Source: Lampris incognitus (Eukaryota > Chordata > Actinopteri > Lampriformes > Lampridae). Taken from it: a stretch of 64,000 nt of DNA. Location: contig NC_079213.1 in the NCBI RefSeq assembly GCF_029633865.1, positions 110,632,836 to 110,696,835 of the forward strand. The letters are read 5' to 3'. The notes under the pieces were generated by a model. It did not search any database, had not been told where the DNA came from, and saw only the letters and a list, made by a program, of their open reading frames with translations. The position numbers and the translations under genes are program-made. Within the stretch, counting starts at the first letter, position 1. Each line of letters begins with the position of its first letter. Below, in pieces: positions 29,742-35,700 of this stretch.

Positions 29742-32700
29742 CTGCATAGACAAAAGCAAGATGGGTCGACTTTAGCAGAGGCTTGGCGAGCTTGGTGCCG
29801 GGAGTGGCGCCTGTGTTGCAGATATAATCTGATATCAGCTTTGGAGGGGACAATTACATGATATTTTCTCAAGCGCAATTCCTGAGGGGGACACCAAAAG
29901 TAGTGCTGTAACACATAGCCTACGTTGTAATATGTTAAATGTATACTAAGGAACCATAATTACTACTACTGGATCATTGATAGGTAGTTAACTAAAGGGT
30001 TGTCCCAACTTGTTCAAATGTTTAAATCATTATACTACTACTAATAGTTAATAGCAGTGTTTCTTATCAGCCCAGTATGTATGCAAGTATTTGTATTTAC
30101 AATCAGCAATACCAAGAAAGGCCAGTAGGTGGCAATGATACTGTACAGTGTATGGGTGCAGTTTTCGTAAATACAACAAGAATGGTGTGATCTCATCTAA
30201 AAGAATCTCTATTGAGAAACGTCACAAAGTTGGTCTCAGTATTGGGGGGGGGGGGGATATAGCATATTTTTCCCAGGATGGGGGGGGTTGTGTCCCCCCC
30301 GTCCCCTCCGCCTATGCTGTGTGTGACTAATCACGAGACAAGGCCACGTTTCCTCACCTCCATCTTCATGGCAATCATGACCATGAGAGGGTCTCCAACA
30401 TCCACCTTGTCTCCGGCCTTCACCAGCACCTGGACACCGTGAGGGGATGAGAAAGCACAAGACTTAGAAGGCCTAACTTGCAATCTGAACATCGCAACCC
30501 CTCTGCCCCACTGCCACGCTCACGACTTTGAGTTCTTTTTCATTTCTTTGAATCCCGTCTGAAACATTAGCTAAGAGGCTACTTATATGAGCGCTGATGC
30601 TGATTTTGAAGACAGGTATGAACCCGCGTGTTGAACGTGATCATATTTGACATTTGATAGGGGATAAGCAAGGCTCAGCGTTTTCGGTTTTCATTTTTCA
30701 AAGCCATCCAGCATGCAGAATTTCGCCACAAGAGGGCACTGTTACATAACCTCACACGAACAGAAACATCTTTTGGATGCGTGGAAACATAAAATCCGGG
30801 TGAAAATCAGTTTAAAAAATCTGGGTATTTTCCGGTGAAAATCGGTAAAAGGTTTTGTTTGTTTTCCAGTTTTGTATGTACGCGGTACAGCCGCACGGAG
30901 GCCAAATAAGAGTGAAATCTTGTCTGTGATTCCTACTCGGTGACGCCGGCTATAAACCCTTCATGGAAGTGGAGTGTGGTTAGGAGGAAGAGGACTGTGG
31001 TTAGGAGGTTGGCTGCAGACTGACAGCCTAAGAGTGGGTAATTGCGCATCTTCTGCCACAGCTGCGAGCCGTTTAGTAATCAGCATCTATTTCTGTCTGT
31101 TCGCAGTAAAACCGACATCCAGACGAGTTGGGGCTGGACAGTGACAAGCGTGTGCAGCAGAAACACGGAAATCAGTGATTCATGGTTTTAGTAGTGACTG
31201 CTTTGCTTGACATTTAAAATTGCCACCGTGTCTGACGGAGACGACCGCCCAGTTATTTGTTCATCCCGCGTCAGCAGTACCTGTCACACCCCGTAAACTA
31301 TCACCTTCACTGACTGGGGGTACGTCGCGTCGAAGACTTCACCGAAGCTGTCTGAGTAGCTGAGACGTACAGTATACAAATGGAAATTTCACTATACACT
31401 GTGTGTAACGGGGTGGCTGGCGTACTAAAGAAGTCTTTAAAACACACACACACACACAAATAGTTTGCTTTGAATAGTAGCGACAGCTTACCTTCTCTAT
31501 AGTTCCAGTCATAGGGGCCACAGCTCCACCCTGGGCCCCAGAACCACTCACACCAGCCAGATACTTGGGTACAGGTATGGAGACTTCAGCGCAACCTTCC
31601 TGTAGGGGAAAGAAAGGGAGTGCTTAGTTTGACAACCAGGCAGATGGCGCCCTAGATTATTATTGACAATGCCTGAAAATACTAGATGAAAGGCTGGGAC
31701 AGTTTATCCATGGCCTTTTTTAACATGACTACCTCAAACATGCAGTCTGCATATGATGACTTGATTTGTCCCACAATATAAAACATTGAAAGTCAGGGTT
31801 CAATCATGGGTTTCTGGTCCCCCTCCCCCTTTTTTTCCTCCCTAATTGTACTTGGCCAATAACCCTATTTTCCCGAGACATCCCAGTCGCTGCTCCACCC
31901 CCTCTGCCGATCCGGGCGGGACTGCAGACTACCACATGCCTCCTCCGATACACGTGGAGTCAGTCACCAGCTGCTTCTTTTCACCTGACAGTGAGGAGTT
32001 TCACCAGGGGGACGTAGCGCATGGGAGGATCACGCTATTTCCCCCCGGTTCTCCTCCCCCCTGAACAGGCGCCCCTGACCGACCAGAGGAGGCGCTAGTG
32101 CAGCGACCAGGACACATCTCCACATCTGGCTTCCCACCCGCAGACATGGCCGATTGTGTCTGTAGGGACGCCCGACCGAGCCAAAGGTAACACGGGGATT
32201 CGAACAGGTGAGCCCTGTGTTGGTAGGCAACAGAATAGACCGCCACGCCACCCAGATGCCCACGCATTTCTGTTTAATGTCGCTTTTCTGTGAGCTCTGT
32301 ATGTAGTTGAATTTTAGTTTTACCAAGTTGTGTTTCTACTGTCAGTTTGTTAAACAATTCAGGTACTCGCCACCATTGAGAACAGTCAGACAGTATGTGT
32401 GTTTGGGTTCTAGGCAGAACGTACCATCGAAAACAGTTAGACAGTAGTTGTGTTTGGGTTCTATGCAGAATGTACCATTGAGAACAGTCAGACAGTAGGT
32501 GTGTTTGGGTTCTATGCAGAACGTACCGTTGAGAACAGTCAGACAGTAGGTGTGTTTGGGTTATATGCAGAACGTACCATTGAGAACAGTCAGACAGTAG
32601 GTGTGTTTGGGTTCTATGCAGAACGTACCATTGAGAACAGTCAGACAGTGGGTGTGTTTGGGTTCTAGGCAGAACGTACCATTGCGAACAGTTAGAGACA

Positions 32701-35700
32701 GTAGTTGTGTTTGGGGTTCTAGGCAGAACATACCATTGAGAACAGTCAGACAATAGGTGTGTTTGGGTTATATGCAGAACGTACCATTGAGAACAGTCAG
32801 ACAGTAGGTGTGTTTGGGTTCTAGGCAGAACGTACCATTGAGAACAGTCAGACAGTATGTGTGTTGGTGTTCTATGCAGAACGTACCATTGAGAACAGTC
32901 AGACAGTAGGTGTGTTTGGGTTCTAGGCAGAACGTACCATTGAGAACAGTCAGACAGTAGGTGTGTTTGGGTTCTAGGCAGAACGTACCATTGCGAACAG
33001 TTAGAGACAGTAGTTGTGTTTGGGGTTCTAAGCAGAACATACCATTGAGAAGAGGTGGACAGTGTTGTTGAGGATGACCAGTTTGGGACGGGACTTTACC
33101 CCGTTCACAGAACAGTGCAAGAATGAAGCTCCGCCCTCTGCCTCCACCTCTCCTGTTGCATGGTACACCTCGCCGCCAATCTTACAGAACAAAAAAAAAA
33201 CACACATAGTATTTTCATGGTGGCGAAGAAACTACTATGAAATGATGACGACTGCGGGCACTGATACAATCACTACTACCGTCACGACTATGACCACCAC
33301 CTTTTGGAAGTGCTTCTCTAAAATTCGAGGGCAGTGCACCACAGCAAACATCCGCAACCAAAATATCCATTGGCTCACCCGCATAGTGTAGCTCCCATCG
33401 CTGTTATACGAGACCACCATATCCACTTCTGAAGACACACACAGAAACACAGAATGATGTTTTACAAATATTTCTGAAGAATTACACAATAGTCAAGTGG
33501 CTGCGGTGACACGGAGCACATCACGCTGACACACCGGTTACTGGGTGCAGTATTTTTAGCATCTATGACAGTTTTAGCATAAATATTGAAATAGCTGTTC
33601 ATTAACCAACTGCCAAAAGCCAGACCCATCCAAAACTGAATAATTAATACAGTCATTACACGAGCTGACGCCTCAGTTAGGGGTCCACTTTCCACCCCCG
33701 AGGGTAAAAGTCCAACCGTTTTTGGCTGATGTGATGGTGATGGGCCGGGCCATGAAGGCTGAATGACAGTCAAGAAAACGGGCTTGTTCACATTATCAAG
33801 GAAACCATCAATCTAATTCCTCTGTGTTAAACCTGGTGCCTCGTGTCCAATCTGTTGGTGAAGAGTGTGGCTTTCGTCTTGAAGCGACTACTAAGAATTA
33901 AATGATACAACTAATTTTCATCTCCCAGGTCTCCCATTATGGTCTGGCTGATGGAAGTATCGATTCGATTCAGCTCTCTCTCTCTCTCTCAGCACTTACT
34001 CTTGTCTGCCAGCTGGAGTGTCACATTTCTGTTAAACAGCATGTTGAGTCTCCGACCACTACTGGAACCAAATGGGGAGTACGGATCTGGAACACACACA
34101 CACACACACCAGCTTTTTGAGTCAAATGAACAAGTGTACGAAGGTGCAAACTGAGTCACCGTTTAAGTTAACATGGTTGTGGGTATTTTTTAGTTCCAAC
34201 ATCACCAAGACTTGTCAAACACTGCAGGGGGCAAGACAGCAGTGCCCCCCCCCCACGTGACATCTAATATTTACAAGAATGAATGAATTGAGTACATTTC
34301 TATTGCCAGTCCTAGGAAACAAAGCACTTTACAATGAAATGACTATCACATTACAGTACAGGTGGACCCAGCGGGAATCGAACCCCGAACCCTAGCTATG
34401 TTAGTACCATGCTTATGGCATATGTTGCCATGACACCAGCTATGTCAGCGAGTCAGATTCCTCATCTGACTTTATATTACTGTTATTTTTATGGACAGCA
34501 GTCTTGGGCAACTTGACGAATATATCGGCAATCGGCTGAGTGCAAGCGGCGGTGGTTTTTGCGCGGTTTTTGTCCTTTTGTTTTGCTAATTTAATGGTCT
34601 GCCTCCTCAAGAATTCAACTGGGTCAATAATTAAGCTGTAAAGAGTAGCTGAAAGTGTGCGTGACTAGGACCTGGCAGTCATGTACGTTCTTACTGCCCT
34701 GACTTCCGGGCGAGTCCTTCTCACAGCAGGCTGCGGCTGAAGGACAGTCGAGCTGCTGTCCGACCGCTTGGTGCTGAAGAGCAACGTCACTTCATCATCA
34801 CGTTTGAGAACTACGCCAAAATCTGTATGAGCGGTTATGGACGCTTGTTTTTTTTTCCCGCACCCGCATTCCGGGAACTCTGCTTCTGATTGGCTAGTAC
34901 TCGTTGCTTCCGTTGGTTAAGGTTAGGGTTAGGGATAGGGTTAGCCAATCAGAGATAGAGTAGGGGCGGGTCTTCCCGGAATCCAGGTGGGAAAAATAAT
35001 AACGCGTTGTGCACCCTGAGCATTTGATAGCATAGTTATCTTATCCCCACCGGTTTGTTCGTGTGGAGGCTGCAAGCGGAGGAGTCTTTATTTGTTAATT
35101 AAAGAATAAAATCACGGGGCCCTGCGCGATCGCGTATTCAGTATATAGCTCGTTTGCAGTCACGTGATTCTGATGACGCGCGAGATTCGGATGGAGGGCA
35201 GGAAGTGAAAAGCAGAATGGGCGGGGTGGAGCTAGTGCAGCCCGAACTGTGCTAGTTTAGATGATGTCATGAGAGAAAGGTGTAAACAGGAAGTCAGACA
35301 TGTTGGACATGATCCTTATGTTATGAAGAGGGGTGTTTTTGAGGAAGTGGTCACTGCACACACGCGCGTCATCCAACTCCGCCCCTCCCGACCGCAGACG
35401 GCGGGTCGCGAGCCATTTTTTTCCGGCGTTTTCGGTCAATTTCTTGCATTTCCCCCCTCATAAACAACAACAACTCTTGGCACTCAATAAAAACTCCTTG
35501 TGGTTTCTCAGTTAATGACGCCAAACATAGGCGTTACGAAAGTTTGTGGTAGTGCTTCTTCCTATGTAGACAATCACTTCCTGCCCTCCAGCTGTAGTTC
35601 GTGACGTCATATGCAAACAACCTTATAGCCTATGGCCGGCACCACTCGCTTGCAAAGATTGTTAATGTCGGTCGTTCGGTTTGCTGGTTGCGTCTGATTT

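Follow-up and report, generated by a model that had tools for sequence, protein, structure and literature searches.

Behind one exon of the gene for MCCC1, a leucine-breakdown enzyme, the 64,000-nucleotide stretch of Lampris incognitus DNA analysed here (the window) carries a tandem array of 13 units, each of which closes with a donor-like junction. Its most likely origin is a tandem duplication of a segment that spans the exon/intron junction itself. We regard it as probable that this junction-derived array is drifting and mostly passive, with the first donor mostly used and low leakage to the sites behind it.

Host gene and anatomy of the array

The conceptual protein of the minus-strand gene of the window matched human methylcrotonoyl-CoA carboxylase subunit alpha (MCCC1, PDB chain 8j4z_E), with an E value of 8.7e-14 for a 60-residue piece near the array and of 4.7e-177 for 378 residues from MCCC1 exons joined by eye. 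Based on this match, tblastn, length and frame, the exon adjoining the array, numbered 15 in the original prediction, was placed at 33043..33180 on the minus strand. It has 138 nt (46 codons, phase 0/0), ends in ...LFSM and reads TTCTCAATG/GTATGT across its end, where the slash marks the junction. Its last codon (33043-33045) is ATG (Met), and human MCCC1 has Lys. The true 5' splice site, ATG/GTATGT, lies at 33041..33042 (minus strand) according to its donor score and to phase 0 with the following exon; since the flanking frames both fit phase 0, the exon ends at 33043 and the intron begins at 33042. The human match and the phase on both sides thus agree with the gene and the donor originally named. 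The following coding exon (31492..31599, minus strand, 108 nt, phase 0/0, EGCAEV...APMTGTIEK) opens at 31599 after CTACAG, and the human counterpart of this stretch reads EGSIEIDIPVPKYL. The biotinyl domain (Pfam) starts in the last residues of this exon and continues onward.

The host intron (31600..33042, minus strand) measures 1443 bp, about 46% of which is taken up by the 669-bp array (32374..33042, minus strand). Tandem Repeats Finder reported 32372-33051 with a period of 51, 13.2 copies and a higher period of 309 bp, in keeping with the earlier description of a 51-bp unit present in about a dozen copies behind the true donor. Cut at the junctions and ordered from the true one, the units measure 54, five times 51, 54 and six times 51 bp down to 32374, that is, eleven of 51 and two of 54 bp. 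Two features of ABCA7-type arrays are present: the array adjoins the exon and takes in its true donor, and a GT follows in common register after all 13 units. The first decoy junction, CAATG/GTACGT, is at 32988..32989 on the minus strand, with 32989 as its last exon-like base. Decoy junctions 2 to 7 are at 32938, 32887, 32836, 32785, 32734 and 32680, and 8 to 13 at 32629, 32578, 32527, 32476 (weakened), 32425 and 32374 (lost), all on the same strand. The decoys had been described as GTACGT or GTATGT, which is right for 11 of the 13 downstream junctions (ten GTACGT and one GTATGT); the other two read GTACAT and GTGGCG.

The nearest unit was said to recur six units on as a trace of block duplication, and the comparison of units bears this out. 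Tandem Repeats Finder and the unit comparison delimit two 309-bp blocks of six units each (33042-32734 and 32733-32425, minus strand). These blocks, units 1-6 and 7-12, differ at 16/309 positions, units 1 and 7 show one difference, and units 2, 3 and 5 are identical. Because the two blocks are closely alike, a block duplication after the initial growth of the array is indicated.

Origin of the repeat unit

The unit consensus, typed by hand, was compared with the MCCC1 exon in the register set beforehand by the array. The last 21 exon bases (33043..33063, minus strand), the stretch that the founding unit would have taken from the exon, are identical to the consensus at 17/21 positions (17/22). 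When both strands of the rest of the window were scanned without gaps for 22-base matches, 17/22 was the top score, and the exon was the sole position reaching it. When three units were compared with the genome by BLAST, the alignment continued into the exon, to window position 33063. These results make derivation from the exon boundary, with about 20 exon bases, the most likely origin, as had been suggested. Without the donor bases -3 to -1 (positions -22 to -4 retained), the exon was identical at 14/19; a 19-base scan found at least 14 identities at 6 of 126,822 positions, the exon included, with one other position higher (15). The exon did not come first in a gapped local scan, its score of 22 being exceeded by other segments with up to 26. 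Because the gapped and 19-base scans ranked other segments higher, what carries the claim of exon homology is the register set by the array, the scan with 22 bases and the continuation of the BLAST alignment into the exon.

The shortness and imperfection of the exon match, together with its rank in the gapped scan, would also fit an intronic minisatellite that arose beside the exon and resembles it by chance or because the exon end was converted later. The array may have converted the exon, since both the exon and 12 of the 13 downstream junctions have ATG at the place of the human Lys. Such a non-exon origin is nevertheless very unlikely in our judgement: compared in a register that the array had fixed in advance, the exon matches better than any other 22-base segment of the window outside the array, the BLAST alignment reaches into it, and the genome searches found nothing of the unit elsewhere beyond one junction match with three mismatches.

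Counts from those searches are lower bounds, with the best candidates alone scored and very common words skipped. On these terms, three units used as a BLAST query on the genome (1.48 Gb, 537 contigs) gave at least 5 matches, all inside the array, and the 804-bp stretch matched only itself among the candidates scored. With up to three mismatches allowed, a 23-base pattern of the junction had at least 14 genome matches, of which 13 belong to the array, namely the true junction and decoys 1 to 12, while one, with three mismatches, lies elsewhere; the reversed pattern, used as a control, gave 1 match per strand. A dispersed satellite or a transposon-borne repeat was rejected, the unit being absent, among the candidates scored, from other loci except for that single control-level match. 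As far as the genome searches reach, the unit appears private to the MCCC1 junction, and tandem duplication over the exon/intron boundary would for this reason be its simplest origin. We consider the origin of the unit from the junction well supported by these comparisons, short of proof.

Strength of the true donor and the decoys

Donors were scored with a human weight matrix applied to fish sites, and U1 duplex pairing was computed alongside. The true donor is weak (weight matrix 3.76, U1 duplex -5.3) and ranks second weakest of eight MCCC1 donors; the seven others, for which the GT with the highest score close to a mapped exon end was chosen and the exon near 47403 was left out, score 3.17 to 8.04. 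Among the decoys, ten score 3.33-3.44 and one 3.76; another is weakened, at -0.1, and the last is lost, at -1.78. With 11/13 decoys within 0.5 bit of the true donor by the human matrix, the early impression that many look as usable as the original is confirmed. The ATG shared by the exon end and most decoys places a T at -2, a base that makes a donor score lower.

Sites as strong as the true donor are by no means rare in the window and presumably idle for the most part: 55 of 5846 minus-strand GTs, the true donor counted, score at least as high. Among the 89 other GTs of the host intron the best score was 3.04. The array held 12 donors (the true one included), whereas 1000 dinucleotide shuffles had 0.27 on average and never more than 3. 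This control overstates the case because any word is multiplied by a single duplication, and 7 donor-like sites are also present on the array's opposite strand. Among the units, 3/9 donor columns and 15/45 other columns are variable; since the donor columns vary like the others, there is no sign of selection keeping or degrading the decoy donor bases, a comparison to which nine columns lend little power.

U1 protects introns from premature polyadenylation. The succession of a weak true donor and a dozen U1-like sites could be read as a platform that collects U1 snRNP beside the donor and either aids exon definition or blocks premature polyadenylation. That U1 can alter splicing from a site that is not itself spliced is indicated by the oestrogen receptor, where U1 at an unspliced pseudo-site reportedly altered splicing, there causing skipping. 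However, the decoys pair weakly with U1 (-4.1 to -5.3), as does one of the seven other MCCC1 donors (-4.4), whereas the remaining six reach -9.2 to -10.7; and a 1.4-kb intron has hardly any need of protection, so that we find a role of this kind quite unlikely.

The array region (32372-33042) can form a GUUCU-N4-AGAAC hairpin of five pairs, and positions +5/+6 fall within it at the true donor and at 9/13 decoys. A shielding of the decoys alone by this RNA structure was rejected: the true donor is covered too, and the opening costs overlap (5.2-5.4 for the true donor, 2.0-7.1 for the decoys and 1.8-7.2 for the seven other MCCC1 donors). The same hairpin might also affect repeat instability.

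Other repeats of the window

A minisatellite of about 10.9 kb with a 27-bp unit occupies 35935-46794, in an upstream MCCC1 intron; two of its minus-strand frames are open for 3639 and 3652 codons and are probably non-coding. Four further minisatellites, at 17696-18810, 19672-22882, 27214-27676 and 57153-57403, have units of 29, 28, 22 and 61 bp, respectively, and lie at least 1925 bp from the ten mapped exon stretches. No GT scoring 3.3 or more was found on either strand of these five arrays, which were the ones taken into the donor test, the remaining, mostly short-period arrays being left out. A putative SINE-like stretch just past the MCCC1 array (32000-32270, minus strand) and reading-frame fragments of a putative Tc1-like transposase (52220-53230, minus strand) were recognised by eye.

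Predicted consequences for the transcript and the protein

Extension of the exon to any of the 13 decoys would bring in the same in-frame TAG (33028..33030, minus strand), the fifth codon after the true junction, and would end the protein before the biotinyl domain. The original prediction of a truncation within five codons thus applies to all 13 possible extended products. We looked in this connection for an open frame through the downstream units, of the kind known from IFI6, and it was absent, as every one of the 13 extended exons stops at this TAG. Transcripts with a premature stop and introns downstream generally undergo nonsense-mediated decay, and decoy-spliced MCCC1 transcripts, which have further introns behind the TAG, are expected to be removed in this way. 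Skipping of the following exon (31492..31599) would keep the frame.

The units might also serve as poison micro-exons, each supplying an acceptor, an exon of 36-39 nt and a donor. In 11/13 units the next junction is indeed preceded by a TAG/AAC at a distance of 36-39 nt, and an in-frame stop falls within this interval, but the unit acceptors score only -0.6 to -1.7 with a weight matrix, against 6.2 and 10.7 for two true acceptors. Because of these poor scores, micro-exons inside the units are extremely improbable.

SF2, to go by the title of a classical paper, reportedly activates proximal 5' sites. Decoys that score like the true donor might be used in splicing, and such an effect of SF2 would favour them.

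Comparison with known repeat arrays

The donor-spanning intronic array is already known as a design from ABCA7 and IFI6, and the MCCC1 case is another instance of it. According to the report on human ABCA7 (Acta Neuropathol. 2018, PMC5954066), the intron-18 VNTR has a 25-bp unit and adjoins exon 18 with the donor included. ABCA7 and MCCC1 both have an intronic minisatellite right behind an exon, with the true donor as part of it and with units that open at the donor GT; in both, the retention of units predicts a premature stop, and loss of the next exon would leave the frame intact. The ABCA7 unit lies in a C-rich region, is not a multiple of 3 and is described as beginning at the donor GT, whereas the MCCC1 units of 51 or 54 bp are multiples of 3, reach about 21 bases into the exon and contain exon-frame stops within each unit. 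For ABCA7, moreover, usage and length effects have been measured.

The ABCA7 data bear on the possibility that a sizeable share of MCCC1 transcripts uses the decoys, reaches the TAG and decays, in such a way that more copies mean less MCCC1, possibly with a length-dependent skipping of the next exon. In PMC5954066, VNTR length goes with lower total ABCA7 expression and with more in-frame skipping of the next exon, and the corresponding MCCC1 exon is likewise skippable. The near-equality of most decoys with an already weak true donor and the truncation of every decoy product point in the same direction. Yet the same paper describes the retention of a single ABCA7 unit, which leads to a premature stop, as rare and independent of VNTR length, and we read the resulting product as a 2% isoform; in the window, equally strong and presumably idle sites are not rare. 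On balance we regard such a copy-number effect through the decoys as rather unlikely.

The IFI6 (6-16/G1P3) minisatellite of Turri et al. 1995, as cited in PMC4526556, provides multiple splice donor sites. It resembles the MCCC1 array in that the downstream repeat units are donors in IFI6 and donor-like sites in MCCC1. The IFI6 alternatives are said there to encode different isoforms, whereas every MCCC1 decoy would yield a truncated product. For UBC and VCX3A, PMC10809524 describes tandem arrays of dual-specific splice sites, which share with MCCC1 the presence of splice sites in every tandem repeat unit. Those repeats are coding and variable in monomer number, with sites that double as 5' and 3', whereas the MCCC1 array is intronic and offers donors only. 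Finally, intron gain through tandem duplication of AGGT segments (PMC4974935) also copies splice signals by tandem duplication, but it creates a new intron, whereas the MCCC1 array multiplies the donor of an existing one. In a search of the open-licence literature, outside which most subscription papers fall, we found no report on alternative splicing of MCCC1 or on a tandem repeat in this gene in fish; the one paper returned concerns synucleins, to judge by its title.

Probable history of the array and its significance

In the reading that we prefer, a 51-bp founder, with about 21-22 bases from the end of the MCCC1 exon and about 29-30 from the intron, would have been duplicated in tandem and amplified by unequal exchange or slippage, including the duplication of a six-unit block. 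The exon copy would have been held by coding constraint while the units of the array drifted. The outcome would be a locus-private minisatellite whose 11-12 donor-like sites are carried along passively behind a weak true donor. Splicing probably takes place at the first site, which keeps the exon short, in most transcripts, and a small fraction of them may, by analogy with ABCA7, use the first decoy or skip exon 31492..31599. The anatomy of the array, the scores of its sites, the common stop codon and the uniqueness of the unit to this locus come directly from the sequence; site choice, transcript decay and neutrality are points that we infer, and the effect of the array on MCCC1 itself is likely small.

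The MCCC1 array amounts to a natural experiment in how 5' splice sites are chosen. One and the same transcript contains a weak true donor and about a dozen near-identical copies of it at a spacing of 51-54 bp, and the array could reveal how position alone governs the choice of donor. If array lengths vary, the position and the number of donors become separable. A heritable rheostat, in which longer arrays divert more MCCC1 transcripts to truncated or exon-skipped forms while the stops in the units bar an extended protein, seems unlikely to us; if true, array length would tune leucine breakdown in this fish.
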